DNA of 64,000 bases, taken from Chitinophagales bacterium. GTDB lineage: Bacteria; Bacteroidota; Bacteroidia; Chitinophagales; JADIYW01. The notes beneath the pieces are model-generated. The model did not search any database. It had not been told where the DNA came from and worked only from the letters and a program-made list of their open reading frames with translations. Both the position numbers and the translations under genes were made by a program. Below are positions 24,473 through 64,000 of this stretch, piece after piece. Every line of letters starts with the position of its first letter. The first letter of the stretch is position 1. Location: contig JAIBAX010000002.1 in assembly GCA_019694955.1 (NCBI GenBank), positions 1 through 64,000 of the forward strand, in the 5' to 3' direction.

Positions 24473-25381
24473 CTAAATGTTGAATGATGTTCTGAGAAAT
24501 GCTTTCATGTCGAAATCATTGTGCATTTCCAGCCATTGAATTTCTTTGTCCTTTTGAAACCAAGTCATCTGTCGTTTTGCATATTGTCTGGTGTGAATCT
24601 TAATGAGTTCTACAGCTTGTTCGAAAGTCATTTTTCCTTCAAAATGATCAAAAAGTTCTTTGTAACCGACGGTTTGTAAAGCATTCAGGTGTTTAAAGGA
24701 TTGGAAGGCACAGGCTTCTTCTAAAAGACCGGCTTCCATCATCTGATCTACACGTTTAAAGATTCTATCTTCTAGGTGTGTTTTATCCCATCTCAACCCT
24801 AATTTTACTATGTTGAAAGGGCGGTCTTTTTTATTATCCTTTCTAAAATAAGAGATAGGCTTACCAGTAAAAAGCAGCACTTCTGCCGCACGAATGACCC
24901 GCTGTGTATTTGCTCTGTCAATACTATTAAATGTTTCGGGATCTTTTTCCTCCAACTCGTGCAACAAAAATGGCAACCCTTCTTCTTTAACTCTTTTGTT
25001 GAGTGCTTCCCTGAAAGCCATGTCTATTGGTGGCATGTCGTCCATTCCTTCACAAAGTGCCTTTATGTATAATCCTGTACCTCCTGCTATTACCACTGTA
25101 TTTCTGTCGGAAAGTACCTGATGTATCGCTCTCAACGCATCACTTTCATAATCGCCGACGCTATAATGTTGCTGTATAGAAACATGTCCAATAAGATGAT
25201 GGGGTACTTCTTCTAATTCTTGTTGTGAAGGTTTTGCAACACCAATATTTAATTCGGAATAAATTTGTCTGGAATCGGCAGAGATTATTTCTGTGTCGTG
25301 CATTTTTGCCAACTCAATAGCAAAACTTGTTTTCCCTGAGGCCGTAGGACCACAAATGATATAGGCGGTTTTTCCTTTCAT
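24473..25381 (-). CDS. miaA: tRNA dimethylallyltransferase
   Basis: This 302-residue enzyme transfers a dimethylallyl group to N6 of A37 in tRNAs that read UNN codons. The P-loop GPTASGKT is at residues 11-18, followed by the substrate-binding DSRQIY. The IAGGTGLYIKAL and RAAEVL motifs are present, and a C-terminal HTRQYAKRQMTWFQKD segment contacts tRNA. Length is normal. Its start overlaps the end of cca by 4 bp (ATGA), showing translational coupling in a run of tRNA-maturation genes. Confidence 0.95.
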   Translation of the reverse strand: MKGKTAYIICGPTASGKTSFAIELAKMHDTEIISADSRQIYSELNIGVAKPSQQELEEVPHHLIGHVSIQQHYSVGDYESDALRAIHQVLSDRNTVVIAGGTGLYIKALCEGMDDMPPIDMAFREALNKRVKEEGLPFLLHELEEKDPETFNSIDRANTQRVIRAAEVLLFTGKPISYFRKDNKKDRPFNIVKLGLRWDKTHLEDRIFKRVDQMMEAGLLEEACAFQSFKHLNALQTVGYKELFDHFEGKMTFEQAVELIKIHTRQYAKRQMTWFQKDKEIQWLEMHNDFDMKAFLRTSFNI

Positions 25382-26814
25382 GCATTTTGTGGAACTACCG
25401 TTAGCCCAATTTCCAGCCCTTTTTGTATCATAAATTCATACGCTTCGTGATACTCATTTCTAATGTCACCATCTAAAATGCCTTCGCGAATGAAATTCTT
25501 GATAATGCCCACTTCTTTGCAGGGAGTTAATCCAAATGTTTGCATAATTAACTCTCCGGATATGGGTGGTTGCCAGTTGCGCAACCTATCACGTTCTTCT
25601 ACTTCTTCAATTTTTTGCTTGACAAGTTGGAGATTTTTGGTATACTTCCTTACTTTCTCCGGGTTCTTAGAGGTGATATCAGCCTCGCATAATAGCAGCA
25701 GTGCTTCCAAATCCTCATCAGCCTCTACAATTAAGCGACGAATGGCCGAGTCTGTTATGTTTTCTTTAGTAAGACTGATGGGGCGAAGGTGTAATGCTAC
25801 CAGTTTCTGAACAAATTTCATTTTCTCGTTCAAAGGCAGCTTTAAAGCGGTAAAAATTTTTGGCACCATACGTGCACCTACGGCATCATGACCGTGAAAT
25901 GTCCAACCATGCCCTTCCTCAAACCGCTGTGTATTAGGCTTAGCGATGTCGTGGAGGATGGCTGCCCAACGCAACCAGAGATCACCACCTCTGTCAACGA
26001 CATTATCCAACACTTTTAGGGTATGGTAGAAATTGTCTTTATGACCATAGTTTTCTACTTGCGCAACACCTTGTAAACGAGCCATTTCCGGAAAAATGAC
26101 TTGTAGTAATCCAGTATTAAACAAATGCTTGAATCCCAAAGAAGGCTTTTCAGTCATAACGATCTTATTAATTTCATCTATGATGCGCTCTTGAGAGACG
26201 ATTTTTATACGTTCTTTTAAAGGTTCTATGGCTTTGTAAGTGGTGTGTTCAATCTTGAAATTTAACTGCGTCGCAAAGCGTATAGCACGCATCATACGCA
26301 ATGGGTCGTCATCAAAAGTTTCGGTAGGTGTCAGCGGCGTTCTGATGATACCGTTTTCTAAATCCGCTAGTCCGTTGAAAGGATCCACAATATTTCCGAA
26401 ATCTTCGCCGGAGAGTGCTATTGCTAGCGCATTTATAGTAAAATCTCTGCGATTTTGGTCGTCTTCAATGGTACCATCTTCAACGATAGGCTTTCTACTC
26501 TCTCTTCTATAAGATTCCTTTCTGGCGCCAACAAATTCCACATCTATACCATTGTAATGGAACATGGCCGTGCCAAAATTTTTAAAATAACTGACATGTA
26601 TATTGGCTGATAATAACCCGGCTGTTTTCTTGGCCAATTCGATACCACTTCCTTCACAAACAATGTCAATGTCTTTACAAGGTCTTCCTAAAAGGAGGTC
26701 TCTAACATATCCGCCAATGGCAAACGCAGGGACATGCATGTCCGCTGCTGCTGCTGCAACGTTCTCAAGGATATACCTTTCTTCTGTAGAAACTTTGTCT
26801 TTAATAGAAAACAT
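25378..26814 (-). CDS. cca: CCA tRNA nucleotidyltransferase with HD domain
   Basis: This 478-residue class II nucleotidyltransferase adds or repairs the 3' CCA of tRNA. The head motif FAIGGYVRDLLLGRPCKDIDIVCEG (about 36-60) has the G-[GS] and DxD catalytic elements. The RRDFTINALA segment follows, and an HD domain (HDIAKP, near 290) lies in the C-terminal half. The tRNA-Cys gene in this window lacks an encoded CCA, in keeping with a need for this enzyme. It is coupled to miaA and lies 24 bp after tsaC. Confidence 0.92.
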   Translation of the reverse strand: MFSIKDKVSTEERYILENVAAAAADMHVPAFAIGGYVRDLLLGRPCKDIDIVCEGSGIELAKKTAGLLSANIHVSYFKNFGTAMFHYNGIDVEFVGARKESYRRESRKPIVEDGTIEDDQNRRDFTINALAIALSGEDFGNIVDPFNGLADLENGIIRTPLTPTETFDDDPLRMMRAIRFATQLNFKIEHTTYKAIEPLKERIKIVSQERIIDEINKIVMTEKPSLGFKHLFNTGLLQVIFPEMARLQGVAQVENYGHKDNFYHTLKVLDNVVDRGGDLWLRWAAILHDIAKPNTQRFEEGHGWTFHGHDAVGARMVPKIFTALKLPLNEKMKFVQKLVALHLRPISLTKENITDSAIRRLIVEADEDLEALLLLCEADITSKNPEKVRKYTKNLQLVKQKIEEVEERDRLRNWQPPISGELIMQTFGLTPCKEVGIIKNFIREGILDGDIRNEYHEAYEFMIQKGLEIGLTVVPQNA

Positions 26815-26838
26815 GAAGGGACAAATTTATGAATAATT

Positions 26839-27402
26839 CTATTCACGAATGACTTCGAGATTACTAGACTCGTCAAATTTGACTATTTTACTAGCATGTC
26901 CTTTGGAGGAATCAAATTTAGGGTCAATGATTTTATCCACTTTGCTTTTAACATCTTCGTGGATATCAATAAACGCCTTAGGATATGGCTCGCCGGAGAG
27001 ATTGGCGGAGGTGCTGATAATTGGTTTGCCCAATTCTTTAATTAATGCAGCTGAAAATCCGGATTTTACCACCCGCACAGCAACACTACCATCGGCAGCA
27101 AGTACTGATTCCGGGAGATTTTTTGCCTTTGGATATATTATAGTAAAAGGTCTTTCAAAATCTTCTTTGATGAGGGAGAATGCTTTCTCAGGGATAAAGC
27201 TTACATATTTCGCCAACATCTCTAGTGAATCTACCAATATGATACAGGCTTTATCGGCCTTTCTTTTCTTTAAACGATAAACTTTCTTAACGGCTTTTTC
27301 ATTTAGGGCATCACAACCAACACCCCAAATGGTATCTGTTGGGTACAGTATTATGCCACCCTGCTCAAGAATTTCTTTGGTTATATTGATTTCGTCTTTC
27401 AT
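26839..27402 (-). CDS. tsaC: L-threonylcarbamoyladenylate synthase (Sua5/YciO/YrdC)
   Basis: This 187-residue single-domain YrdC-fold enzyme makes threonylcarbamoyl-AMP from threonine, bicarbonate and ATP for t6A37 modification of ANN-decoding tRNAs. Typical elements are ILYPTDTIWGVGCDA, YRLKKRKADKACIILV and a PIISTSANLSGEPYPK segment. It lacks the extra C-terminal Sua5 domain. It sits between a glycosyltransferase gene and cca in a tightly spaced operon. Confidence 0.9.
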   Translation of the reverse strand: MKDEINITKEILEQGGIILYPTDTIWGVGCDALNEKAVKKVYRLKKRKADKACIILVDSLEMLAKYVSFIPEKAFSLIKEDFERPFTIIYPKAKNLPESVLAADGSVAVRVVKSGFSAALIKELGKPIISTSANLSGEPYPKAFIDIHEDVKSKVDKIIDPKFDSSKGHASKIVKFDESSNLEVIRE

Positions 27403-27410
27403 AATATCAA

Positions 27411-28523
27411 CTACAATAAAGAACTATATAGTTCCATAATTTTTTTAGTTTGGTGCAAAGGTTCAAATTTTTTTATGAATTCCGAGTTTTTATTTCTTTT
27501 CTCAATCAAATCTTCATCATTTTGAAACATTAAATTAATAGCATTCGCTATTTGTTCCATGTTTCCGGGATCTACCATGGAGCATCCTTCTCCGGCAACT
27601 TCCTTTAATCCGCCTTTGTCTGAGGTAATCACCGAGATGCCCATTTTCTGCGCTTCCAAAACCGGAAGTCCAAATCCTTCATATTGCGATGGATAAATTA
27701 ACCCTTTAGCCATAGCATAAATACAGGGAATATCATACCAAAGGATATGTTCCAAAAAAAACAATCTATGTGACAGCTGCCATTTCACCCCTAGCTTCCG
27801 AATGGCATCAATACCATGACTCCCGATAATTACTAAAGGAACATCCTGATTTTCGGGCAAGGAAAGCGCCTTTAAGACCGTTTCAATATTCTTTCTTGGG
27901 TTGCCAGTGCCAACAAATAAGAGAAAATCCTCGGGTAAATGAAATTCTTTTCTTTTCTTATCGATGACTTCGTAGGTATAAACATGTTCGTATTCTTGTC
28001 CCCATGTTTGATAACATACCTGAATCTTCTCTTCTGGAATTTTTAACAACTCGATTAAATCTTCTTTTGTTGACTCAGATATAGCAATGATTTTGTCGGC
28101 TTTTTGACAAGCTTTCTTCACTTTTGCTTTAAAAACCATTCTGTCGAAAAATGGGAAATGCTTGGGATAGCGCATGAAAATAAGGTCATGAATGGTAACC
28201 ACACTTTTAATACCTGAAGGCATACCTACTGGCAACTCGTTGCTAAGTCCATGGTAGAGTTGAATTTGCTGTTGCCTTAAATCTTTAACAATTCCTTTGG
28301 CTCGCCAAGTATTGGGATTGCCTCCTTGAACAAAAGAAGTTCTTGTTTTAAAAAACGAATTGTCAAAAACAGTGTTTTTCAAATACGCTTGGTGTGCGAA
28401 GATGGTGTACTGATGCTCTGGAGAAAACCTGACAAGATTGCGCAATAATGTTCTGGAGTAGTTGCCAAGTCCGGTGCTATTCTGAAAAATTCTTTTCCCA
28501 TCAAAGCCAATATGCATGCTCAT
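27411..28523 (-). CDS. Family 4-type glycosyltransferase
   Basis: This GT-B glycosyltransferase of about 370 residues has an N-terminal acceptor half (MHIGFDGKRIFQNSTGLGNYSRTLL). The C-terminal nucleotide-sugar half has the GT4 E-x7-E motif in EGFGLPVLEAQ (near 280-290). It probably builds surface polysaccharide or a glycoconjugate; donor and acceptor are unknown. The start at ATG 28523 lies 4 bp after the dapD stop, and ATG 28517 is an alternative. It is the only envelope gene in a run of lysine-pathway and tRNA-maturation genes. Confidence 0.87.
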   Translation of the reverse strand: MSMHIGFDGKRIFQNSTGLGNYSRTLLRNLVRFSPEHQYTIFAHQAYLKNTVFDNSFFKTRTSFVQGGNPNTWRAKGIVKDLRQQQIQLYHGLSNELPVGMPSGIKSVVTIHDLIFMRYPKHFPFFDRMVFKAKVKKACQKADKIIAISESTKEDLIELLKIPEEKIQVCYQTWGQEYEHVYTYEVIDKKRKEFHLPEDFLLFVGTGNPRKNIETVLKALSLPENQDVPLVIIGSHGIDAIRKLGVKWQLSHRLFFLEHILWYDIPCIYAMAKGLIYPSQYEGFGLPVLEAQKMGISVITSDKGGLKEVAGEGCSMVDPGNMEQIANAINLMFQNDEDLIEKRNKNSEFIKKFEPLHQTKKIMELYSSLL

Positions 28524-28527
28524 CAAA

Positions 28528-29343
28528 TTATACGGAAACACTAAAATCTCTCAAAGCATCATTCAGCGACGTTTTAAGATCGGTAGATGGTTTCCTTTTG
28601 CCAATAATTAATGCACAAGGTACTTGAAAATCTCCGGCCGGAAATGTTTTGGTGATACTTCCTGGAATTACCACAGAACGCTCCGGAACAACGCCTCTGT
28701 ATTCGATAGGTTGCTCTCCGGTAACATCGATGATTTTTGTACTCATAGTCAGTACGACATTTGCACCTAAAACGGCTTCTTTTTCTACCCGAACACCTTC
28801 AACCACAATACATCTGGAGCCAATAAAACAGTCATCCTCAATAACAACCGGGGCAGCTTGTACGGGCTCTAAGACGCCTCCAATGCCAACACCACCGCTC
28901 AGGTGAACATTTTTGCCAATCTGTGCACATGAGCCAACCGTTGCCCACGTATCCACCATTGTGCCGCTACCTACATAAGCTCCAATGTTTACGTACGAAG
29001 GCATGAGGATAACGCCCTTCTCCAAAAAAGAACCGTGGCGAGCAATTGCATGTGGCACCACGCGTACACCAAGATCTTTATAATGGCGCTTCAAAGGAAT
29101 TTTGTCATGGAATTCAAAGGGGCCTACTTCTATCGTTTCCATCTTCTGTATTGGAAAGTATAGAATTACACCCTTCTTTACCCAATCATTTACAATCCAT
29201 TTGTCTGCTACCTTCTCGGCAACCCTTATTTCACCTTTATCTAATAAAGAAACAAGTGCCTGAATAGTTTCCTGTGTGTTTTTATCTTCCAGCAAGCTAC
29301 GATTTTCCCAAGCTGCCTCAATAATCTTTCTTAAATCATCCAT
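28528..29343 (-). CDS. dapD: Tetrahydrodipicolinate N-succinyltransferase
   Basis: This 271-residue trimeric left-handed beta-helix enzyme uses succinyl-CoA to succinylate tetrahydrodipicolinate, a step to lysine and meso-diaminopimelate for peptidoglycan. Hexapeptide repeats are clear (about 100-210: VNIGAYVGSGTMVDTWATVGSCAQIGKNV). The start is set at ATG 29343 (MDDLRKIIEAAW) because the -7 box at 29364-29371 lies upstream. The longer frame to 29406 would be outside the transcript. Confidence 0.95.
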   Translation of the reverse strand: MDDLRKIIEAAWENRSLLEDKNTQETIQALVSLLDKGEIRVAEKVADKWIVNDWVKKGVILYFPIQKMETIEVGPFEFHDKIPLKRHYKDLGVRVVPHAIARHGSFLEKGVILMPSYVNIGAYVGSGTMVDTWATVGSCAQIGKNVHLSGGVGIGGVLEPVQAAPVVIEDDCFIGSRCIVVEGVRVEKEAVLGANVVLTMSTKIIDVTGEQPIEYRGVVPERSVVIPGSITKTFPAGDFQVPCALIIGKRKPSTDLKTSLNDALRDFSVSV

Positions 29344-39839: not shown

Positions 39840-41885
39840 TTATTTCGTTATTAAATCAGCAAATTCTTGTAGTTTTTGGAGATTTGGGTGATGATTGCTT
39901 TTGGCTATTGCAATATGTGGCTCTAAATTCCAACCGATTGATTTAGCACCTTTTGAAATCAGATTGGATAGTTCCTGCTCTCCTTTTTCATACCATGAAG
40001 CATAGTGGGCATATCTATAGAACCATAATTCTGCAAGAAGCCCTAATTCTTCTTGATCAGCTAATTCAAATGCCTTGTTTATATATGTCTCCGCATTTAA
40101 AAAATCATGCTCAGCAATGATTAAATGATGTGCATAGTTGCCATTATTGTTGGCATCGTTAGGATTTATTTCGATGGCTTTCTTATAGAATTCCTCCGCT
40201 TTATCATATTGTTTGAGGATATCTGAAAGGAATAGGGCATAGTTGTCAAGATTGTTGGCATCATTAGGATTTATTTCGATGGCTTTCTTATAGAATTCCT
40301 CCGCTTTATCATATTGTTTGCGGATATCTGAAAGGAAAAGGGCATAGTTGCCAAGATTGTTGGCGTGATTAGGATTTACTTCGATGGCTTTCTTATAGAA
40401 TTCCTCCGCTTTATCATATTGTTTGCGGATATTTTTAAGGAAATTTGCATAGTTGCCATGGAAATCAGCATTATTGGGATTTATTTCGATGGCTTTCTTA
40501 TAGAATTCCTCCGCTTTATCATATTGTTTGCGGATATCTTTAAGGAAAATGGCATAGTTGTTAAGATTGTAGGTGTGATTAGGATTTATTTCGATGGCTT
40601 TCTTATAGAATTCCTCCGCTTTATCATATTGTTTGCGGATATCAGAAAGGAAATGGGCATAGTTGCCAAGATTGTTGGCGTGACTAGGATTTATTTCGAT
40701 GGCTTTCTTATAGAATTCCTCCGCTTTATCATATTGTTTGAGGATATTTTTAAGGAAATTGGCATAGTTGCCAAGAACATCAGCATTGTTGGGATATTCG
40801 GTCAATCCCTTTTGATAAATTTTATTTTTCTTCTCCACATCCTTTTCTGAATATGCCTCATATAAATATTTTAATGCCCCTGTAAACAATTCCTTTGTGT
40901 CGTCACCGATATCTTCACTTTCTTTAGATATTTTATCGAGTAAATTTTTTAGCGTATTGTTTAAATTATTTATCCTTTTTTTGGTAGCCTCAACAAACGG
41001 ATGTTTATCAGGGTCATCTAAATTTTCAAAGACTTTATAATCTAATGCGTCATTCAACGAAATCATCAATTCATCAAACCCTTTGATTTTAACAAAGAAA
41101 TCTTTTTCTGTTAAAAGATCTTTGATCTTGTCATTGATTTCATTTTCATTTCTAATGCACCAATAAATAGCTTTCCTATCTTGTGCGTCAATGCTTTTTA
41201 AGTAATCCATTAAGCTGCCGTCATTTCCTCCATAACCGATAACCAGTAAATTGAAATTTCGCAGTATCGGTAACAAAGCATTTTTCCACTCATCTTTTAG
41301 TTTTTGGGTGTCAGTGTTATCATTGAAAGGATGTAAAAAAAGGTCGCGATGAACTTTAATGATGGTGGGTCTTTCCGTTTGAGAAGAGATGAATTCTGCT
41401 AATGTTTCGTGGCCAGCTGAAAAGGGCTTTTTAGACGTGTACATTCTCACGGAATCTTCAATCAAATAATCGAAATTGGTGGTGATAACAAAATTGTGTC
41501 GCTCCGTAGTGATGATTTGTGAGAGGATAACATAACCGATGCTGGGTTCAATGTTTTCCATTAGTTTCTTAAATTCTTCATATCCTATTTGTGGGGAGGT
41601 TTCATATCTTTTTTTGTATAAATACGGATAAAAAGCAGCAATATTTGCCGGATCAAAATGAATTTCCTTTTCCCAAACTGCTAGTTCTTCTGTACTTAAA
41701 TCTTCTTTCAAAATTTTGTACCATTCTTCTGCTAACTCCCATCCGGTTTTTATTCCCGAACTTTTTGATGCTCCGGCACCAATCAAAAAGCAAAAACGGG
41801 TTTCATCGCTTTTTAACCGCTTAATATCCTTGAATAAAGTTACCAGTCGCTTTTGGGTTATTTCGGAAGGTGTATTATTTTCCAT
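39840..41885 (-). CDS. SIR2-like NAD-binding protein with TPR array
   Basis: This 681-residue protein has two parts. The N-terminal part (about 30-270) is a SIR2-like (SIR2_2) fold: GAGAS at 36-40, ITTNFD at 134-139 with the predicted catalytic N137, KVHRD with H179, and GYGGND at 217-222. The C-terminal part (about 330-610) has TPR units, including six nearly identical 35-residue copies of KQYDKAEEFYKKAIE. The combination of NADase-like SIR2 and a repeat sensor is characteristic of bacterial immune effectors; here that role is an inference. There is no signal peptide and no obvious partner gene. It stands alone between thiS and glyS. Confidence 0.85.
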   Translation of the reverse strand: MENNTPSEITQKRLVTLFKDIKRLKSDETRFCFLIGAGASKSSGIKTGWELAEEWYKILKEDLSTEELAVWEKEIHFDPANIAAFYPYLYKKRYETSPQIGYEEFKKLMENIEPSIGYVILSQIITTERHNFVITTNFDYLIEDSVRMYTSKKPFSAGHETLAEFISSQTERPTIIKVHRDLFLHPFNDNTDTQKLKDEWKNALLPILRNFNLLVIGYGGNDGSLMDYLKSIDAQDRKAIYWCIRNENEINDKIKDLLTEKDFFVKIKGFDELMISLNDALDYKVFENLDDPDKHPFVEATKKRINNLNNTLKNLLDKISKESEDIGDDTKELFTGALKYLYEAYSEKDVEKKNKIYQKGLTEYPNNADVLGNYANFLKNILKQYDKAEEFYKKAIEINPSHANNLGNYAHFLSDIRKQYDKAEEFYKKAIEINPNHTYNLNNYAIFLKDIRKQYDKAEEFYKKAIEINPNNADFHGNYANFLKNIRKQYDKAEEFYKKAIEVNPNHANNLGNYALFLSDIRKQYDKAEEFYKKAIEINPNDANNLDNYALFLSDILKQYDKAEEFYKKAIEINPNDANNNGNYAHHLIIAEHDFLNAETYINKAFELADQEELGLLAELWFYRYAHYASWYEKGEQELSNLISKGAKSIGWNLEPHIAIAKSNHHPNLQKLQEFADLITK
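40140..40780 (-). repeat. 105-bp tandem repeat inside the SIR2-TPR gene
   Basis: Six in-frame copies of a 105-bp unit encode the TPR units. A core of about 40-50 bases is the same in all copies, while linkers differ. The high DNA identity implies recent duplication or gene conversion and potential copy-number variation. Confidence 0.88.
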
Positions 41886-45998: not shown

Positions 45999-46577
45999 TT
46001 AAATATATCGTTGATCCAGGCTGTACAATTCCGGATTCCTGGGAGTTATGTTTTTATAAAATGCCATAATTTCGCGCATGTCCTTTTCTAAATCCGTCGG
46101 ATAAATTAATTTGCCGATGCCGGCTTCTTTCTTGGCATAATCAAGATAACCCAATCCTATCGGAACGCCAGCCATTTTTGCAGTATGCCAAAATCCTGTT
46201 TTCCATTCCGTTCTTTTTGACCGCGATCCCTCGGGTGTGACCATTACAGATATTTTGTCATACTTTGTAAACAACTCTGCCATAGCTTCTACCATGCTTG
46301 GGCGTGGATCACCGGGTTTCTTGGGTGTTCTGTCAATAGGAATGCCACCCATTGGACCAATCAACAAATTAAAAGGAAACCGAAACCATTCCTTCTTAAT
46401 GGTAAAACGCACCGGAATGCCCATGTCGAAATAACCACCCATGGCATGTACTAAATCCCAGTTACTGGTATGTGGAGCCGCAATAACCACCGAGCGTTCA
46501 ACACCCTTAGGATAATTGGGATTCATTTTCCAGCCCATCAATTTATACAGGAAATAAAAAATGTACTTTAAAAGCAT
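45999..46577 (-). CDS. PlsC-like lysophospholipid acyltransferase 1
   Basis: This 192-residue membrane-associated acyltransferase has the HX4D motif in [12 protein letters not shown], the [11 protein letters not shown] block and a PEGSRSKR motif near 115. It would move an acyl chain to a glycerolipid intermediate. The product type is unknown. Its closest relative in the window is the next gene, with the same motifs, so the pair is a tandem duplication. Confidence 0.85.
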
Positions 46578-46753: not shown

Positions 46754-47323
46754 CTATGAATAGCGTTCGTCTAGTGCAAATTGCGGTTTTTTTCCTTTTT
46801 TATCTTTGTAAAATGCCATAATCGTCCTCATATCTTCTTCAAAATCGTTGGGAATGAACGACTTGAGTATTTCGGCAGTTTTTGTTTCGTAATTTAAATG
46901 TCCCAGACAAATAGGAACATTAGCGAGCTTTGCCGTATACCAAAACCCTGTTTTCCATTGCGACCGCAATGACCGAGAACCTTCGGGTGTAACCGTCATT
47001 GCAATTTTGGTATATTGCGCAAAAATTCCCGCCATGGCTTCTACCATACTTTTTTTCTCTATATCATTTTTCTTTTTTGTCCGATCTATAGGAATTCCTC
47101 CGAGCGATTTTATTAATAGACCAATTGGAAATCGAAACCATTCTTTTTTCATGGCAAAATGTGCAGGGATGTCTAGTTCATAAAAGGCTCCTACACCAAA
47201 AACAAAATCCCAGTTCGATGTATGGGGTGCAACAATCATCACACATCGCTGTGCATCCTCAGGAACTTCGTTGCGCACTTTCCAACCCGCAATCTTATAT
47301 ACCAAATAAAAAACAATTCTCAT
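46754..47323 (-). CDS. PlsC-like lysophospholipid acyltransferase 2
   Basis: This protein of about 189 residues begins MRIVFYLVYKIAGWKV. It repeats the motifs [31 protein letters not shown] and TPEGSRSLRSQWKTGFWYTAKLA. It is a diverged tandem copy of the neighbour at 45999-46577. A longer GTG-started frame to 47359 is possible but less likely. Both lie upstream of asnS on the same strand. Confidence 0.84.
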   Translation of the reverse strand: MRIVFYLVYKIAGWKVRNEVPEDAQRCVMIVAPHTSNWDFVFGVGAFYELDIPAHFAMKKEWFRFPIGLLIKSLGGIPIDRTKKKNDIEKKSMVEAMAGIFAQYTKIAMTVTPEGSRSLRSQWKTGFWYTAKLANVPICLGHLNYETKTAEILKSFIPNDFEEDMRTIMAFYKDKKGKKPQFALDERYS

Positions 47324-47433
47324 TTTTGGCAAGTTTTTTGACAAATTTATACTATTCACGTAAATATTGACGTATAAGTATTAAGATAATTTGAACAAAC
47401 ATACAATGATAGAGAAAACCAACATCAACCTGC

Positions 47434-47460: not shown

Positions 47461-48984
47461 TTGGATAAAGTAATCGACATATTGCCACCAGAAAACCAAA
47501 AAACGCTTTATCCCTATCAGGTCGAAGCCATAGAAAAACTGCTGGAACACCTTTTGCACAACGAAGAAAAGGAAAACATCATTTTTCAACTACCAACTGG
47601 TGGAGGAAAAACGGTCATCTTCTCGGAAATTACCAAAAGACTTATCCAACTGACCGGAAGAAAAGTACTCATTCTTACCCATAGAATCGAATTGCTCAAG
47701 CAAACATTTGGTGTACTTTCTGAAGTAGGCATTCCATCTTGTATCATTACAAGCGAGGTAGGAAAGATTGAAGATCATACACAATATGAGTGTTACTTGG
47801 CGATGGTGGAAACGCTTAACAATCGACTGCAAGAGTACGAAAACTATCTCCCCAATATAGATTTAGTAATTGTTGATGAGGCACATTACAATTCTTTTCG
47901 TAAGATATTCCAGTATTTCAAAGATGCCGTCATTCTGGGTTTTACGGCTACTCCACTGAGCTCAAATATTAACCTGCCATTAAAGGAAAACTATCAAAAA
48001 CTCCTTGTCGGGCAATCCATTGCAGAGCTGATTAAGAAAGGATTTTTAAGTGAGGCAACCACCTATACTTTTGATGTTAACCTAGAGTCATTAAAAATTG
48101 GCATTGATGGAGATTTTTCTGTCAGCAGTTTGGAGCGTTTGTATAGCGAATATGATATGCAAGACAAGTTGCTCAAGGCTTATGAAGAATGTGCACTTGG
48201 TTCTAAGACGTTGATATTCAACAGCTCCATTGCTTCTTCAAAAGTTGTTGAGAACCTATTTATCAAGGCAGGTTATGAAATTAAACACCTCGACAGCACT
48301 TATCCTAAAGAGGAAAGAAAAGAAATTTTAGCATGGTTCAGAGAAAAACCGGATGCGATTCTTACCTCCGTAGGTATCTTAACTACAGGGTTTGACGAAC
48401 CAACAGTGGAAACCATCATCTTAAACAGGGCAACACGATCCTTAACGCTGTATCACCAAATGTGTGGACGTGGTTCGAGGGTGCTTCCTAATAAAAAGTT
48501 CTTTAAAATCATAGATCTTGGAAACAATGCCAAACGACTGGGATTGTGGCAAGACTATGTGGATTGGAAGGAAGTGTTCCTCAATCCTACAAAATTCCTC
48601 GAACAAATGGCAGAGTGGGAAGAGAAGCTCAATAGCGGGTTAGTATATTCACTTCCTGACTACATCAAAAGGAGTTTCCCAAAATCCATGGATTTCTCTT
48701 TTGACATGGAAGAAGAATATTATTCTAGATTGAAGAAAGCGAAAAAAACCATCGAAGCCGTAGATGCCTCTATTGAAAACCACTATCAAAGAATTGTTGA
48801 AAATGCCGGCGACCTCTATGAAGGGTTAGATTTATTAAATCTGCTTCAAGATGAAATACAGTTCAGGTTGAGGGTTTATACCAATTGTCTATCAAAATCA
48901 ACAAAAAATTATTTCAATTATTTGTTGGAGAATTACAACGAAAAGATAAAAAGTAGATTAAGGAAGGAATTCTATCGCTTCTAG
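47461..48984 (+). CDS. DEAD/DEAH-box helicase family protein
   Basis: This 507-residue superfamily 2 helicase uses a TTG start placed just after a promoter box. Walker A PTGGGKT is near residue 50 and the DEAH box VIVDEAH near 140. The SAT-like motif FTATP follows, and the C-terminal motif is YHQMCGRGSRVLP (about 330-340). The last about 110 residues are helical and unassigned. Nucleic-acid target is unknown. Its end overlaps the convergent PPTase gene by 27 bp. Confidence 0.86.
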   Translation: MDKVIDILPPENQKTLYPYQVEAIEKLLEHLLHNEEKENIIFQLPTGGGKTVIFSEITKRLIQLTGRKVLILTHRIELLKQTFGVLSEVGIPSCIITSEVGKIEDHTQYECYLAMVETLNNRLQEYENYLPNIDLVIVDEAHYNSFRKIFQYFKDAVILGFTATPLSSNINLPLKENYQKLLVGQSIAELIKKGFLSEATTYTFDVNLESLKIGIDGDFSVSSLERLYSEYDMQDKLLKAYEECALGSKTLIFNSSIASSKVVENLFIKAGYEIKHLDSTYPKEERKEILAWFREKPDAILTSVGILTTGFDEPTVETIILNRATRSLTLYHQMCGRGSRVLPNKKFFKIIDLGNNAKRLGLWQDYVDWKEVFLNPTKFLEQMAEWEEKLNSGLVYSLPDYIKRSFPKSMDFSFDMEEEYYSRLKKAKKTIEAVDASIENHYQRIVENAGDLYEGLDLLNLLQDEIQFRLRVYTNCLSKSTKNYFNYLLENYNEKIKSRLRKEFYRF

Positions 48985-49644
48985 ACGATGAATTATACAT
49001 TGTGAGGGATTTTTATCAAAACAAATAAATGAGGAATAACCCGTTTCGATAGTGAGTTCCTGATACCACCAATTTTTACCATCACATTGGATAAGTTGCT
49101 CGTCTTTTCGTTCAGATTTCTGTAAGAGAATGGAACCACGCCCATCGGCTTTGATTACACTCTCTTTTAATGACCAATAATAAAAGAATCGACTTAATGG
49201 GTTGTCGGCGTGAATCATATCATGCCATTCATTGGTGGAAAAATACCTGTCAAAGACAGAAAACTCTATCTCCCGATGTTTTTCGATATCAACACCGATA
49301 GCACAATTTTTCGCTAGCGCACAAAGAACATATTTCCCCGAGTGAGAAATATTAAAGTCAATAAAATCGTTGATATTCAACAATTTTGTATCGAAGTAAG
49401 GGCGATCTTTTATTTGATATCTTACGTGTTTTAGCAGTTCGATATCTAAACCAGCCTTTTCAATAGCCATTTTTAGGAGCAAATTCCCAAAGAGGGACGC
49501 CTGATAATCGCGCCATTTCTTATAGGAAAGGATTTTCTCATGAAGATTCTCAGGAAGTTCTGATAGCCATTTATCAAAGGTGGTTTTCGGCAATTCTTCC
49601 TCAAAACTAGATATAAGAAGCCATATTTCAGCTTGTTCTCCCAA
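48958..49644 (-). CDS. Sfp-type 4'-phosphopantetheinyl transferase
   Basis: This 228-residue enzyme attaches phosphopantetheine to carrier proteins. The magnesium motif GVDIE is at 117-121 and WSLKESVIKADG at 157-168. The double-domain length is that of Sfp-type enzymes, which serve secondary metabolism, not of the short AcpS type. It is the last gene of the PKS operon and overlaps the thioesterase gene by 17 bp, so it most likely activates the ACP of that PKS. Confidence 0.9.
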   Translation of the reverse strand: MGEQAEIWLLISSFEEELPKTTFDKWLSELPENLHEKILSYKKWRDYQASLFGNLLLKMAIEKAGLDIELLKHVRYQIKDRPYFDTKLLNINDFIDFNISHSGKYVLCALAKNCAIGVDIEKHREIEFSVFDRYFSTNEWHDMIHADNPLSRFFYYWSLKESVIKADGRGSILLQKSERKDEQLIQCDGKNWWYQELTIETGYSSFICFDKNPSQCIIHRLEAIEFLP

Positions 49645-50326
49645 TGGTATCTTTTATTATATTGATTACAAACGGGGCGTTGTCAAATAGAAAGAAATGC
49701 CCTCCGTCTTGATGAGGAATCACCTGAACATCTTTAAAATGATTGCTCCAACCCTCCGCCTCTGCCAAAGAAATTCTGTCCTTTGTACCATATATTACGG
49801 TGGCAGAAACGGGCATCTTGAAAGGCTTCTCAGGGGTAAAATTTTCCAAAGCCTTGAAATCTGCCCTCAAAATCGGCTCAAAAAGTTCCCGAAGTTCAGG
49901 ATGATCAATTAAGGCTTGTGGGCAACCACCATATTTTTGTATGCCTTCCCAAAATAAAGAAGCATCTAAATGTGCGATTTTCGCATAATCAGCATAAGAA
50001 TCTGGGCATCTTCTAGAAGTAAGAAAAATATGTTTGGGTAAGCTTAAATCGTTCATAACCAACGATTTTGTCAGCAGAAAAGCTGCTAATGCACCCATGC
50101 TATTCCCTAAGATTACATAAGGTTCATCCAAATAGGGATGAAGTTGTTGCATCAAGTCATTAGTAATGTCTTCCATTTCGTCTAGCAAAGGCTCTCCGAA
50201 GCGATCTCCCCGACCCGGCAATTCTAATGCAATAGGCATTAATTCGGGTTTGAGTAAATCCATATACTCCCGAAAGGAATACTTATCTCCACCGGCATGG
50301 TGTAATAAAATGATGCGCATCATCAA
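49628..50326 (-). CDS. Type II thioesterase
   Basis: This 232-residue alpha/beta hydrolase belongs to the type II thioesterases of polyketide and peptide synthases. The nucleophile elbow is GNSMG (S76), with Asp183 in YGTKDR and His210 in HQDGGH completing the triad. It may remove stalled chains or release the product. It overlaps the PKS gene by 4 bp and the PPTase gene by 17 bp, so all three are coupled. Confidence 0.9.
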   Translation of the reverse strand: MMMRIILLHHAGGDKYSFREYMDLLKPELMPIALELPGRGDRFGEPLLDEMEDITNDLMQQLHPYLDEPYVILGNSMGALAAFLLTKSLVMNDLSLPKHIFLTSRRCPDSYADYAKIAHLDASLFWEGIQKYGGCPQALIDHPELRELFEPILRADFKALENFTPEKPFKMPVSATVIYGTKDRISLAEAEGWSNHFKDVQVIPHQDGGHFFLFDNAPFVINIIKDTIGRTS

Positions 50327-53300
50327 TTATTTATGGAAGGAAGCTTAGCGTCAAACTTCTTAAATAACCTCAACAACCAACCATCTGTTGGCTTGATTTC
50401 ATGCCAATCACCATCTTCCTCCTCTTCTTCCAAAACGTTACCTAAGATGATATCATTCATCAATACACCACCAGCACTATTATCGACATATTTTTTACAC
50501 AAGTAGTCATGTAAATCATGTATATTGATATATATATGTAATAAAGAAATATCTAAAGTAGTATGTAGGTACTTCTCTAAAGCTGTTAAATACTCGCCAC
50601 TCATCATGGAATCAAATCCCTGATCCCTAAGTGATTTGTGGTCATCGAGTTTAGCAGATTTCTCTAGTCCTAACACCCTGTTACCTTCTTTATGCATGAT
50701 TTGATAGAAAGTTTCTCTTGTCAAAACGCTGGAAACTTCATGCTGTTCAACTTTAATTTTATTGGTTTTATCGGCAATTACAGATGTATTGGATGTTTCG
50801 TAATTGATTCGTACCGGATCATACCAATATTTTTTTCTTTGCCATGCGTAGGTCGGCAAGTTGATTTTTGTGACATGCTTTCCTTCGTATAGTTGCTTCC
50901 AATTTATTTTGACACCTGAGATAGCAAGTTGGGCAAGTCCCAACATCATACAATGTGTATCTTCTGTACCCTTTTTTGCAGAATGTATCCAAACTGTCTG
51001 AGGTGCATCGATACTTTGTTTTCCTAAACCAACAAGGGTAGGATTTGGTCCTGTTTCAAGGAACATTTCAATGCCGAGTTGCTCGTATGCATATAAAATA
51101 TTTTCTCCAAAACGGACAGTACCTCTTAAATGATTGCTAAAATACGATGGAGTCAAATCAGATAGAGAAATTTCTCTGTTTAGAACATTTGAAATGACAG
51201 GAATTTGAGGTGTATGAAACTGCGTTTTTGCCACTTCTTCCTGAAATGCTGACAGAATCGAATCCATGAGATGCGAGTGAAAGGCATGGCTGACCGTTAA
51301 GGAGATGGCTTTTATTTTTGCTTCTTTTAAGCGATCCACAACTGCTTGAACGGCATCTTTCTCTCCGGAAATCGTGGTGCTCTTGGGAGAATTGGAGGCT
51401 GCGATAGACACTTTATCCGCATAGTCTTGCATAAATGGTTGAATATCTTCTACTGAAGCAATAACAGCAGCCATGGCACCTACTCCTTCCGGCAATGATT
51501 GCATGTGCTTTCCGCGCGCTGCAATGAGCCGAAGGGCGTCTTCCAAATGTAGTGCTTCTGCCAAGGTAAGTGCAACAAACTCCCCAACACTATGACCAAA
51601 AACAACGGCAGGTTCCATTCCGAGGCTTTGCCAAAGTTTTGCCAATGCATATTCTACAACAAATAAACCGGGTTGTGTATATTGGGTTTGGTTAATCAAA
51701 TCCTGATCCTCCGCATGAAAGAGAATGTCCTTGATAGAAATTGGTAAATACGCTTTCAGTATTTCATCACATTGGTCGAAAGCGGCTTTAAAAACAGGTT
51801 CTTGGTCATAATAACCCTTACACATACTAAAGTACTGTGCGCCTTGCCCCGTAAACATGAATGCGATGTCTTTAGCCGGCATATTTTCTGTATCGTTGAC
51901 TATCAACGATTTGTGATTTTCTCCGACAACAAAAGCCTGTAGTGCATCCACTACTGTAGCGGCATCGGCTGCAACAATGGCTAATGTATGTTCATAATGG
52001 TTTCTTCCTGTTTGAAGGGTGTAACAAACGCTGTGAAAGGGTGCGGTCTTCCAGTTTTCTTCTCCAATGTATTTTTGAGCAAGTTCCTTTAAACTATCTA
52101 CGGACTTTGCACTCAAGCAAAAAACATTGACAGGATAAGTCGGAAAGGAGTCATTCGCCACTTTTTGGGGAGGTTCTTCAAAAATCATATGTACATTGGT
52201 ACCACTGTATCCACTTAGATTAATGGCTACCTTCATGGGATGCGTGCCTTTCCATTCAATAGTTTCTGTTGGTATTCTAGCGTGAATCTGTTCCCAGTCA
52301 ATATCGGTATTTGGCGTTGAAATATGAATATTTGGCGCTATTTGATGGTGTTTTAATGTTTCTATCACTTTGAAAAGCATCCCCATACCAATGGCAGCTT
52401 CTAAATGTCCTATATTTGGCTTAAGGGATCCGATATAAATGGGTGAATTTCTGTGCTTATAACCATTCTCAATGGCCTGAATTTCCATAGCATCCGTGAA
52501 TTTATTTCCAATACCATGTGCTTCTACAAAGCTGACTTCTTCAGGATTTACCCCAGATATCTCCAAAGCTTCTTTTATTACTGCAATTTGCGCTTCCGGA
52601 TTAGGTGCCGTAAAGCCATTGCTAGTTCCATCGTGTTTTACTGATGAACCTTTTATAATACAAAGAATATTATCGTTATCTTTCTCGGCATCTGCTAATC
52701 TCTTAAGTATAACGACACCACATCCTTCCCCACGAACATATCCGTCGGCATGCTCATCGAAGGCTTTACATTTTCCTTCTGAAGAGAGTGATCCCAATTT
52801 CGATAACCCAACATATAACTCGGGTGTTAAAATAAGGTTGGCAGCTGCAACAACGGCACAATCTGCCCTGCCCGTTTTGAGGTCTTCACTGGCGAGATGC
52901 AATCCAACAATAGAAGAAGCACAAGCGGCATCTAATGCAAAGTTCGGCCCTCTAAAATCGTACAAATACGATAAACGTCCGGCGGCTGTTGCGAAAGGTA
53001 TGCCCGTTGTATCATATACATCCACGTCTTCAAGATGTCCACTTCTTAATCTTGCAGACATGTAGTCGGAATTTCCTAAAGCTATATAAACGCCGGTTTT
53101 ACTCCCTTTTAGCGAGTCGCTGGCGATTCCTGCCGATTCGAATGCTTCTAAGGTTACTTCGAGTATCATCCGCTGCAAAGGGTCTATAGACTTAGCCTCT
53201 CGAGGAACAATGCCAAAGTACTCAGCATCCCATTCAGTAACATCATTGGTTAGGAATCCACCATGATTAGCATTCGTTTTACCCGGTTTTAATGGATCGG

Positions 53301-53550
53301 CATCATAAATTTTGCTATTATCCCACCGCGATTTAGGGATAGTAGTAATCTTATCACTTTTTTGAACAAGTGTATCCCATAAAAGTTCTGTATTTGTTAT
53401 TCCACCAGGAAGTCTTGCTCCAACACCAACAACTGCTATGGGGACATTGGGGGTGTTTTTCTTACTGGCTTCCAATTCTGCTTCTAGGCGTTTAATGGTA
53501 ACCAAAGATTTTTTAAGCATTTCCTGCATTTGCAAGAGCTGTTCAGACAT
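50323..53550 (-). CDS. Single-module type I polyketide synthase (KS-AT-ACP)
   Basis: This protein of about 1075 residues begins with a coiled-coil docking-like helix (1-32). A ketosynthase follows (about 36-460), with C210 in DAACASS, H345 in VEAHGIGNK and H382 in NIGHLEA. The acyltransferase (about 565-860) has S654 in GHSVGE and HAFHS at 755-759, which suggests malonyl-CoA. One ACP carries S981 in GFDSM. No KR, DH, ER or integral TE domain is seen. The last about 45 residues are acidic. The start is ATG 53550; the longer frame lies upstream of the probable promoter box (TATCTTTA at 53568-53575). Confidence 0.92.
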   Translation of the reverse strand: MSEQLLQMQEMLKKSLVTIKRLEAELEASKKNTPNVPIAVVGVGARLPGGITNTELLWDTLVQKSDKITTIPKSRWDNSKIYDADPLKPGKTNANHGGFLTNDVTEWDAEYFGIVPREAKSIDPLQRMILEVTLEAFESAGIASDSLKGSKTGVYIALGNSDYMSARLRSGHLEDVDVYDTTGIPFATAAGRLSYLYDFRGPNFALDAACASSIVGLHLASEDLKTGRADCAVVAAANLILTPELYVGLSKLGSLSSEGKCKAFDEHADGYVRGEGCGVVILKRLADAEKDNDNILCIIKGSSVKHDGTSNGFTAPNPEAQIAVIKEALEISGVNPEEVSFVEAHGIGNKFTDAMEIQAIENGYKHRNSPIYIGSLKPNIGHLEAAIGMGMLFKVIETLKHHQIAPNIHISTPNTDIDWEQIHARIPTETIEWKGTHPMKVAINLSGYSGTNVHMIFEEPPQKVANDSFPTYPVNVFCLSAKSVDSLKELAQKYIGEENWKTAPFHSVCYTLQTGRNHYEHTLAIVAADAATVVDALQAFVVGENHKSLIVNDTENMPAKDIAFMFTGQGAQYFSMCKGYYDQEPVFKAAFDQCDEILKAYLPISIKDILFHAEDQDLINQTQYTQPGLFVVEYALAKLWQSLGMEPAVVFGHSVGEFVALTLAEALHLEDALRLIAARGKHMQSLPEGVGAMAAVIASVEDIQPFMQDYADKVSIAASNSPKSTTISGEKDAVQAVVDRLKEAKIKAISLTVSHAFHSHLMDSILSAFQEEVAKTQFHTPQIPVISNVLNREISLSDLTPSYFSNHLRGTVRFGENILYAYEQLGIEMFLETGPNPTLVGLGKQSIDAPQTVWIHSAKKGTEDTHCMMLGLAQLAISGVKINWKQLYEGKHVTKINLPTYAWQRKKYWYDPVRINYETSNTSVIADKTNKIKVEQHEVSSVLTRETFYQIMHKEGNRVLGLEKSAKLDDHKSLRDQGFDSMMSGEYLTALEKYLHTTLDISLLHIYINIHDLHDYLCKKYVDNSAGGVLMNDIILGNVLEEEEEDGDWHEIKPTDGWLLRLFKKFDAKLPSINN

Positions 53551-60571: not shown

Positions 60572-60702
60572 AACACATTATTATCTCGCAAAAATATAAA
60601 ACACGTTTCACTTATTTTTTATTAATCCTAAATTAGTTGCTGCCTTTTCTCATTAACGACAGGATTTATAATTATGTCGCAACTTTCGACCGTAATTTTG
60701 GT

Positions 60703-60710
60703 TATTTTTG
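60703..60710 (+). promoter_or_regulatory. -7 promoter box of icmF
   Basis: TATTTTTG matches TAnnTTTG and lies 16 bases before the ATG at 60727. It is in the divergent region shared with the transketolase gene. Confidence 0.6.
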
Positions 60711-60726
60711 TACAAAATTTATCACC

Positions 60727-63700
60727 ATGGTTATTGCAGACCCACAACCTTATAAGATAAAGAATAAAATCCGCATCGTAACGGCAGCATCTCTATTTGA
60801 CGGTCATGATGCCGCCATCAACATTATGAGGAGAATTATTCAAGCTTCCGGAGCAGAGGTAATTCACCTTGGACACAATCGCTCTGTTGCAGAAATCGTG
60901 GATTGTGCCATTGAAGAAGACGCTCACGCCATTGCACTTACTTCCTATCAAGGCGGACATATGGAGTTTCTCAAATACATGTATGATTTATTAAGAGAAA
61001 AGGGATGCGGACATATTAAGATTGTAGGCGGCGGTGGCGGAACAATCCTTCCGGCGGAACAAGAAGAACTGCACCAATATGGGATAGATAGAATCTATTC
61101 GCCAGACGACGGTCGCCAAATGGGATTGCAAGGGATGATTGACGATTTGCTATCTCGCTGCGACTTCCCCTTAGGTGATAAAATAGATTTTGATGAAGAG
61201 AAACTGAAGGCAAAAAATCCCTCTTATATAGCCAGACTTATTTCTGCACATGAAAATTATCCGGAACAAAACATACACATATTTGATCAAATAAAATCAT
61301 CGATAAAAAACGATAAAAAAATACCGGTACTAGGAATTACAGGAACTGGAGGAGCAGGAAAATCCTCTCTGACGGATGAAATTGTAAGAAGATTCTTATT
61401 GGATTTCCCTGAAAAAACAATAGCCATCATCTCCGTAGACCCCAGCAGACGAAAAACGGGAGGTGCTTTATTAGGCGATAGAATCCGCATGAATGCCATC
61501 AGCAATGACCGTGTATATATGCGCTCAATGGCCACAAGACAAACCAATGCATCCACATCAAAAAGTCTGGCTCCGGCAGTAGATGTATTGAAAGCGGCAG
61601 GGTATGACCTCATCATCATCGAAACTTCTGGAATCGGTCAGTCAGGCACCGAAATACTGGATTATAGCGATACTTACATGTACGTAATGACACCGGAGTA
61701 TGGTGCCGCCTCCCAATTGGAAAAAATCGACATGCTAGATTTCGCCGATATCATTGCCATTAACAAATTTGACAAAAGAGGCGCCTTGGATGCATTGAGA
61801 GACGTAAAAAAACAATATCAAAGAAATCGAAACCTATGGACAGAAGATGTCAATACAATGCCGGTTTTCGGGAGTATCGCTTCACAGTTTAACGACCCCG
61901 GTACTAATGAATTATATTTAGCATTAATAAACAAAATAATCAATAAATCAGGCCTTGATTGGGAATCAACGATAAATTTGCGAATCGGAGATTCCGAAAA
62001 AATCTATATCATACCGCCTAGCCGTGTCAGATACCTTTCCGATATAACGCAAAACAATAGAAATTATGATAATTGGGTAAAAGAACAAAGAGAGATAGCG
62101 CAAGACTTGTACGCCATTAATCGTTTAAAGACGATTAAAAAAGACTTGGTTGAATTAACCGCGCTAGAAAAAGAAAAATCTGCATTACTACATCCAGAAA
62201 ACAAAAAACTTATAGAAACGTGGGAACAAAAAAAACAATCCTATGCAAAAGATGAATTTGAGTTTCAGGTTCGAGACAAAGTTTTAAAAATAAAAGCAAA
62301 TTCCACCTCCCTTTCCCATATAAAAATTCCTAAAGTAGCTCTTCCAAAATATGAGGCCTGGGGAGATATATTATATTGGAATTTACAGGAAAATGTTCCC
62401 GGAGAATTTCCTTATACTGCCGGTGTTTTTCCCTTTAAACGGGAAAATGAAGACCCTACCAGAATGTTTGCTGGAGAAGGCGGTCCCGAAAGAACGAATA
62501 AACGCTTCCATTATGTCTCATTGGGAATGCCGGCAAAGCGATTATCAACAGCCTTTGACTCAGTAACGCTTTATGGGGAAGACCCTGCTATCAGACCGGA
62601 TATTTATGGAAAAATTGGCAATTCGGGCGTTTCTATCTGCACCTTGGATGATGCTAAGAAGCTATATTCAGGATTTGACCTCTGCAATCCTGCAACCTCT
62701 GTCTCAATGACAATTAATGGTCCTGCGGCAACGATATGCGCTTTCTTCATGAATGCCGCCATCGATCAGCAATGCGAAAAATATATCTTCGCAAATAATC
62801 TAGTTGACGAGGTGAAACAGAAAATTGCTGAAATTTATAAACAAAAAGATGCACAAATACCTACCTACAACGTTGATAATGAACGATTACCAGAAGGAAA
62901 TGACGGCTTGGGTTTATTGCTGTTAGGCGTTACCGGAGATCAAGTTCTGCCAAAAGAAATCTATGAAAAAATAAAAGCAGACACACTTTCACAAGTAAGA
63001 GGAACTGTTCAGGCAGACATCTTAAAGGAAGACCAAGCGCAAAACACCTGTATCTTCTCTACCGAATTTTCATTAAAACTCATGGGTGATGTTCAGGAGT
63101 ATTTTGTGCAACATAAAGTAAGAAACTTCTATTCAGTATCTATTTCAGGGTACCATATTGCCGAGGCAGGTGCGAACCCCATTTCACAATTAGCATTTAC
63201 GTTGGCAAATGGGTTTTCCTTCGTGGAGTATTATCTTTCCAGAGGGATGCATATTGACGATTTTGCACCAAACCTGTCATTCTTTTTCTCCAATGGCGTC
63301 GATCCGGAATATGCCGTTATCGGTCGTGTGGCACGTAAGATATGGGCAAAAGCCATGAAATACCTTTACAAAGGGAATGACCGTTCACAAAAACTTAAAT
63401 ACCATATTCAGACATCCGGTCGCTCCTTACATGCACAGGAAATTGATTTTAATGATATCAGAACCACTTTGCAGGCGCTGTATGCCATATATGACAATTG
63501 CAACTCTTTACACACCAATGCTTACGATGAAGCTATTACAACGCCAACGGAAGAAAGCGTACGGCGCGCAATGGCAATACAGTTGATTATCAACAAGGAA
63601 CTAGGTTTGGCAAAAAATGAAAACCCCATACAAGGCGCATTCATTATCGAAGAGTTGACCGACTTAGTAGAAGAAGCAGTATATGCTGAATTTGACAGGC

Positions 63701-64000
63701 TCACTGAGCGTGGTGGTGTGTTAGGTGCGATGGAAACGATGTACCAACGCAGCAAAATTCAAGAGGAAAGCATGTATTATGAAATGAAAAAACATACAGG
63801 CGAACTTCCTTTGATAGGGGTGAATACCTTCCTCTCCTCAAAAGGCTCTCCCACCAATATCCCGCAAGAAGTCATACGTGCTACTACCGCCGAGAAAGAT
63901 CTTCAAATCAGCAACCTTAAAGCACTGCAAGAACGCAATAAAGAAGAAGCAAATCAATTGTTGACAAAGCTAAAAGATGCAGCACTCAACAACAAAAACC
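60727..64000 (+). CDS. icmF: Fused isobutyryl-CoA mutase IcmF (3' end beyond window)
   Basis: The first 1091 codons lie here and the frame stays open to the window edge. A B12-binding domain comes first (DGHDAA, cobalt-ligand His27; TSYQGGH). It is followed by a MeaB-like GTPase chaperone domain with Walker A GTGGAGKS at 206-213. The large mutase barrel comes last ([32 protein letters not shown]). The fused order is diagnostic of IcmF, which interconverts isobutyryl- and butyryl-CoA or related acyl-CoAs with adenosylcobalamin. Two copies of the dispersed palindrome lie within it (62871, 63582). No cobalamin riboswitch is seen upstream. Confidence 0.95.

Follow-up and report, generated by a model that had tools for sequence, protein, structure and literature searches.

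A polyketide synthase protein conserved in a family of Chitinophagales: probable terminal position in a dispersed assembly line and a possible link to exported glycans

Organisation of the three-gene locus

The window analysed here is a stretch of 64,000 nucleotides from a Chitinophagales bacterium (assembly GCA_019694955.1, contig JAIBAX010000002.1, positions 1 to 64,000 of the forward strand). On its minus strand lie three overlapping genes, encoding a type I polyketide synthase (PKS) protein with ketosynthase (KS), acyltransferase (AT) and acyl carrier protein (ACP) domains, here called PKS3, a type II thioesterase, and an Sfp-type 4'-phosphopantetheinyl transferase (PPTase). Our analysis indicated that PKS3, which reduces nothing, very probably performs the last extension in a cis-AT type I assembly line whose genes are dispersed. 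The fuller reading, in which the acyl product of this line ends up on an exported glycan or glycolipid, has in our estimate a probability of roughly 50%. The comparison covered the 13 genomes of the family (G000-G012), sorted into the genera g1 (the window's genome), g2, g3 (eight genomes) and g4 (three genomes); the named members are metagenome bins assigned to Chitinophagales, Bacteroidota or Sphingobacteriales.

The PKS3 gene (50323-53550, 1075 aa), identified by Pfam, by open reading frame (ORF) reading and by its orthologues, runs from an ATG at 53550 to a TGA at 50325-50323 without internal stops. The thioesterase gene (49628-50323) starts with an ATG at 50323 and shares one base with the PKS3 stop codon in the junction TGATG, and the PPTase gene (48958-49644) starts with a TTG at 49644 and overlaps the thioesterase gene by 17 bases. 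The original prediction, made from the sequence alone, had given the coordinates exactly and had noted that the genes overlap. Pfam detected ketoacyl-synt, Acyl_transf_1 and PP-binding in PKS3 and no ketoreductase (KR), dehydratase (DH), enoylreductase (ER) or thioesterase (TE) domain, which bears out the predicted single elongation module that reduces nothing. No release domain (TE or reductase) was found by Pfam behind the ACP; such a domain is usual on the terminal protein of a cis-AT PKS, but it is neither universal nor defining.

PKS3 begins with a docking-type helix (aa 1-34; 53449-53550), recognised by alignment with the N-terminus of CurL and kept as LxKSLxxIxxLE in 12/12 orthologues. 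The KS domain (about aa 37-460; 52171-53442) has the catalytic residues C210, H345 and H382, and the sequence HGIGN (aa 345-349; 52504-52518) replaces the HGTGT of its loop. The AT domain (about aa 564-880; 50911-51861) carries GHSVGE and HAFH, is malonyl-like, and has CurL as its nearest solved structure (E 3.1e-83). It is followed by the ACP (about aa 958-1016; 50503-50679), with the signature GFDSMMSGE, and by a C-terminal tail (aa 1017-1075; 50326-50502) whose aligned copies conserve WHxI...D...FKxxD and are not of the class 2 docking type; a short helix was predicted in this tail at low confidence. A Cys-His-His triad in the KS, an embedded AT with GHSxGE, and an ACP with GxDS together place PKS3 among the cis-AT type I modular PKSs. 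The closest solved structure over both KS and AT is CurL of the curacin A PKS (PDB 4mz0; E 1.8e-219), and the N-terminal helices of the two proteins align. However, CurL belongs to another pathway and taxon and has an EAHGTGT-type loop, whereas PKS3 has HGIGN and, as a feature of its own, the conserved non-docking tail.

The nearest solved structure of the thioesterase was RifR (E 4.5e-35). It is a free-standing alpha/beta hydrolase with a Ser-Asp-His triad, invariant in 7/7 aligned sequences, and is predicted to be of type II, in agreement with the original prediction. For the PPTase, a Pfam member of the ACPS superfamily with the length of Sfp, the nearest solved structure was Sfp itself (E 2.7e-32), which again agrees. 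However, the ACPS-family search returned exactly one gene per genome in 13/13 family genomes, in the window's genome the PPTase of this trio, and no AcpS (TIGR00516) scored over its cut-off in any of the 13. The family thus apparently lives on one PPTase. Since it is the only gene of its superfamily detected, this enzyme is probably general for the cell, serving fatty-acid synthesis too, so that its presence does not mark the trio as a dedicated unit; to call it the operon's own PPTase was misleading.

Conservation of PKS3

Full-length PKS3 was found in 12 of the 13 family genomes; the remaining one, G001, has a 390-aa piece at a contig end, which was left out of the alignments. Identity to the window's PKS3 is 49-56%. 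C210, H345 and H382, HAFH, HGIGN and GFDSMMSGE are invariant in 12/12, so that the unusual KS loop and ACP signature noted in the original prediction belong to the family as a whole. The AT active-site motif is GHSVGE in the window's PKS3 and GHSIGE in the remaining orthologues. A scan for KS-loop motifs in 79 named relative loci gave 153 pattern matches, counted as matches and not as genes, of which 142 were HGTGT and four HGIGN; seven were single odd strings, some of them not from KSs. All four HGIGN matches came from the same family, and no HGIGN from outside it was among the 153.

The loop raises the possibility that the KS is non-elongating or impaired and only passes the chain on. Both threonines of HGTGT, which help to hold the pantetheine arm, are replaced in 12/12 orthologues. 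We consider this highly improbable, as the catalytic triad is invariant and the malonyl-like AT intact; non-elongating KSs usually lack the HGTGT histidine.

Among 396 sampled genomes of the order, 47 had a PKS3 match at 1e-150, and only the family's own proteins scored above 1700 bits. The best match outside the family (872 bits) lay within an open frame of 2856 aa. A scan of genome contigs with a single protein gave no relative, while the alignment-based scan did. In a KS tree (quick method, midpoint root) the 12 PKS3 sequences formed one group with support 100 on a long branch (0.93), and none of the 75 other relatives was a close neighbour. These relatives were taken as one KS per named locus (L053-L127; L049-L052 were omitted as lying on the same contigs as four family genomes). 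The KS part of the phylogeny proposed along with the original prediction shows PKS3 as a distinct group, among leaves that include no reference KS of known product.

Probable partner synthases

The original prediction had read the N-terminal coiled coil as a sign of docking to a synthase outside the window, and two probable partners were located in the window's genome. Contig C62 carries PKS1 (KS-AT-DH-ER-KR-ACP, 2177 aa) and the adjoining PKS2 (KS-AT-KR-ACP, 1511 aa), in the order PKS1-PKS2, with OmpA, SLBB/Poly_export and Wzz-like genes before them and a fatty-acid hydroxylase gene after them. The search for partners elsewhere in the genome was thus successful for PKSs only: no condensation domain of a nonribosomal peptide synthetase (NRPS) was found in the genome, and an NRPS partner for PKS3 was ruled out accordingly.

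A docking-type helix at the N-terminus was found in PKS2 and PKS3 but not in PKS1, and acidic C-terminal tails of the LSxxxLxxxL type were found in PKS1 and PKS2 but not in PKS3, whose tail differs and is conserved. By its sequence, the extension before the PKS3 KS is helical and CurL-like, as expected of a putative class 2 docking element. When the ends are read by the class 2 docking rules given in passages of PMC9113145, their sequences match in the order PKS1 to PKS2 to PKS3, which would make PKS3 the last protein of the line.

This order bears on the claim that the three genes form a self-contained unit. On that account PKS3 would work alone, perhaps iteratively, and the thioesterase would release what it makes, either beta-keto acids or a pyrone. 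It would suit a synthase without reductive domains whose gene is followed by overlapping thioesterase and PPTase genes, and an iterative pyrone synthase was a possibility in principle. However, the N-terminal docking helix is kept in 12/12 orthologues, and in g3 PKS2 lies directly upstream of PKS3 in 8/8 genomes (in three of which a contig end truncates the locus), and the PKS2 C-terminal tail matches wherever the contig includes it. The thioesterase and PPTase genes lie elsewhere in G003 and G005, which means that the trio is not a fixed unit. We therefore rejected the self-contained operon on its docking ends and neighbourhood, regard PKS3 as the third and last protein of a line, and consider independent synthesis by PKS3 improbable, since the docking order speaks against iterative pyrone formation as well.

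A separate PKS1 is not among the genes detected in g3, and the N-terminus of the g3 PKS2 is unlike both the PKS3 helix and its PKS2 counterparts in g1 and g4. The synthase that precedes PKS3 in G008 (L040 9486-13946) has a KS that groups with PKS1 and, in its frame as read, lacks a docking helix at the N-terminus; the two features may reflect a domain exchange.

Gene neighbourhood across the genera

In g3, the PKS2, PKS3, thioesterase and PPTase genes lie in one cluster with genes for polysaccharide export, a flippase, a glycosyltransferase, and a pair formed by a membrane-bound O-acyltransferase (MBOAT) and an SGNH protein, here called cl6. A thioesterase match follows PKS3 in 7/8 genomes (G008 excepted), and a PPTase gene also in 7/8; in G006 the latter is on another contig, beside GtrA, cl6, MBOAT, Wzx and GT4 genes. 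The cl6 gene is within 5 kb of PKS3 in 6/8. SLBB and Wzz-like genes precede PKS2 in 6/8, including G010, where PKS2 is divided between two contigs and these genes lie on the second one, and in the other two the contigs end inside PKS2. One gene type recurs at or near this cluster (L038 18537-19664 in G006, L039 17044-18246 in G009 and L040 2-865 in G008); in G009 it encodes a member of the acyltransferase-3 family.

In the window's genome the same gene sets are divided among three contigs. The order cl6-MBOAT-Wzx-GT4 is shared by the window's genome, g2 and g3, the MBOAT, Wzx and GT4 genes being counted within the stretches fetched and not genome by genome. In the window's genome this block is on contig C3, with 41-53% identity to g3, and the GT4 gene is followed by four unannotated ORFs with no Pfam match. 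In g2, the cl6 block is cut off within cl6 by the end of its contig, and a second contig starts within cl6 and goes on to the PPTase and thioesterase genes; these two ends suggest a g3-like arrangement, without proving it. In g4, OmpA-SLBB-Wzz-PKS1 was found in 3/3 genomes and MBOAT-cl6 also in 3/3, while PKS2, PKS3, the thioesterase gene and MBOAT-cl6 are separated from one another, and the MBOAT gene has neither Wzx nor GT4 as a neighbour.

SLBB export and Wzz-like genes thus precede PKS1 or PKS2 in the window's genome, in g4 and in most of g3. The Wzz assignment corresponds to a weak GNVR match, below its cut-off, in the window's genome, and to none in G004. With the Wzx-type flippase and SLBB/Poly_export, the linked genes include parts of a Wzx/Wzy-type pathway. 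A cl6 gene is present in 13/13 family genomes, though broken into pieces in G001; of 47 other genomes of the order, five gave a match, with far lower scores. Among the titles and abstracts that searches of an open-licence library listed, we recognised no cluster joining a PKS with an MBOAT-SGNH polysaccharide system.

A GT4-like gene of the window (27411-28541) was tried as the cluster GT4 and rejected, with 27% identity; the true counterpart is the one on C3. It belongs to a row of minus-strand genes (24473-28541) for miaA, poly(A) polymerase, a Sua5-type protein and the GT4 protein, and in g3 the PKS cluster is bordered at its far end by poly(A) polymerase and miaA.

The MBOAT and its SGNH partner

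The linked MBOAT, which lies outside the window, has DltB as its nearest PDB structure. It shows the MBOAT domain, the GLWHG histidine, a C-terminal FXYXXF-like motif and an adjacent SGNH protein, as in MBOAT-SGNH acyltransferases. The C-terminus reads FVYFQF, FFYFQF or FVYFQY in 11/11 cluster-type copies, conforming to FXYXXF in five and to FXYXXY in six, all six from g3. Two further MBOATs of the window's genome end in FIYFQF and FIYVNF. According to passages of PMC12148441, FXYXXF is the acyl shuttle of MBOAT-SGNH acyltransferases.

For cl6, neither a Pfam search nor a sequence search against solved structures gave a meaningful match. Its predicted model, of low confidence, has an N-terminal helix and an SGNH fold, and the top 11 rows of a Foldseek search with it were all DltD (best E 5.3e-4). 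That MBOAT and cl6 form an extracytoplasmic O-acyltransferase pair is well supported, but this support does not extend to the acyl donor. Membership in a Dlt system was rejected because the shuttle motif is fused to the MBOAT and not carried by a separate DltX microprotein. The pair resembles PatA-PatB, the alginate type and DltB-DltD in its linked MBOAT with C-terminal FXYXX[FY] and in its SGNH-fold partner bearing an N-terminal helix, but unlike those systems it adjoins a type I PKS. PatA draws on acetyl-CoA, and the Dlt system depends on a free carrier protein together with a separate DltX (PMC12148441).

Other genes of the window

Just beyond the PPTase gene and a helicase gene, two related PF01553 acyltransferase genes lie in tandem on the minus strand (45999-46577 and 46754-47359). 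The protein encoded at 39840-41885 (minus) combines a SIR2-like domain with many TPR repeats, a make-up that we associate with candidate anti-phage proteins. At 60637-63999 (plus), B12-binding, MeaB GTPase and mutase domains are fused in a protein that runs past the window end and is similar to the fused isobutyryl-CoA mutase type. An FG-GAP repeat protein with a Por secretion tail is encoded at 9830-12061 (plus), adjoining an Omp85-type gene.

Discussion

The nearest solved structures of the PKS2 AT are EryA module 3/4, MAS and similar, and its motif is VASH, a combination that we take to be methylmalonyl-type; the CurL-like PKS3 AT with HAFH is presumably malonyl-type. Genes of the methylmalonyl-CoA mutase family are present in the window's genome. 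In the proposed line, PKS3 would take a 2-methyl-3-hydroxyacyl chain from PKS2 and add one unreduced C2 unit, giving a 4-methyl-5-hydroxy-3-oxoacyl-ACP, and in g1 PKS1 would contribute a further reduced, methyl-branched unit. The thioesterase may edit or release the PKS3-bound chain, and the PPTase would arm all carrier domains, probably that of the fatty-acid ACP as well. As the gene neighbourhood suggests, the acyl product could become a lipid anchor or acyl decoration of a polysaccharide or glycolipid that the linked flippase, glycosyltransferase, polysaccharide-export and MBOAT-SGNH genes would make. This link, drawn from conserved neighbourhood, we hold to be about evenly balanced.

A different fate of the chain, which we think rather unlikely though worth serious weight, is an ordinary diffusible metabolite, such as the dihydropyrone that would arise if the 5-hydroxy-3-oxoacyl chain cyclised spontaneously. 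The MBOAT-SGNH pair would then O-acetylate a separate exopolysaccharide from acetyl-CoA, and the clustering would reflect shared regulation or chance. The fused shuttle motif, typical of acyl-CoA users, fits this, as do a type II thioesterase that could free an acid and the unlinked gene blocks of g1 and g4. However, SLBB and Wzz-like genes immediately precede a PKS gene in three genera, among which the PKS3 proteins share only about 50% identity, and cl6 and PKS3 co-occur in 13/13 family genomes, counting the partial copies of G001.

A more specific form of the glycan proposal is that the PKS3 carrier domain hands the polyketide chain directly to the linked MBOAT. Its ACP would dock on the inner face of the MBOAT, in a role like that of DltC in teichoic-acid D-alanylation; the MBOAT would carry the chain across the membrane to its own C-terminal tyrosine, and the DltD-like SGNH protein would esterify it onto the exported glycan. 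Such a transfer would explain the missing release domain, the invariant GFDSMMSGE helix and the conserved tail after the ACP. Counted from the ACP serine, PKS3 has Met at +1 and Glu at +5; DltC has Met36 and Glu40 there, and both touch DltB (PMC11035591). A docking hub is what PMC9338922 calls DltC. Of 149 other ACP motifs, only five have Met at +1, none of them with Glu at +5. However, Glu at +5 alone occurs in 96/149, so the likeness to DltC is weak, and MBOATs that carry a fused motif are reported to draw on acyl-CoA, with Dlt as the sole known case of a carrier-protein donor (PMC12148441). We therefore think direct hand-over unlikely.

Several observations weigh against the attachment of the product of a PKS3-terminated line to an exported glycan. 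Neither the window's genome nor g4 has the gene blocks linked, so that linkage rests on g3 and, through two contig ends, on g2; moreover, all the genomes belong to one family and their neighbourhoods are not independent. Docking of PKS2 to PKS3 is judged from sequence alone. The KS of the G008 'PKS2' groups with PKS1 in the tree, and the G007 PKS2 (L033 8557-13469) is broken by in-frame stops, either by decay or by assembly error. The thioesterase match is absent in G008, and in G003 and G005 neither small gene is beside PKS3. On the acyltransferase side, the fused motif and the acyl-CoA use reported for it mean that the MBOAT may simply acetylate; the cl6 model is of low confidence (mean pLDDT 62.5), and in VIA-align the best scores go to ordinary SGNH esterases (Z 13), with PatB at 10.3.

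The enzyme types found here are known, and the new part is their combination with an exported-glycan acylation set. The mycobacterial lipooligosaccharides and acyltrehaloses (Pks5 and others) provide an earlier example of a surface glycan bearing an acyl chain made by a PKS, but they differ from the line described here in synthases, transfer enzymes and export machinery. Product prediction would go astray if the trio in the window were annotated as a PKS operon that is compact and complete. If the carrier domain does feed the MBOAT directly, this would be a new route of polyketide unloading and a new class of acyl donor for MBOAT-SGNH systems. The genomes of this family are mostly 2-4 Mb, and the PKS is kept throughout the family and recurs beside genes for polysaccharide export and O-acylation; it looks like a part of cell-surface construction rather than an optional antibiotic pathway.

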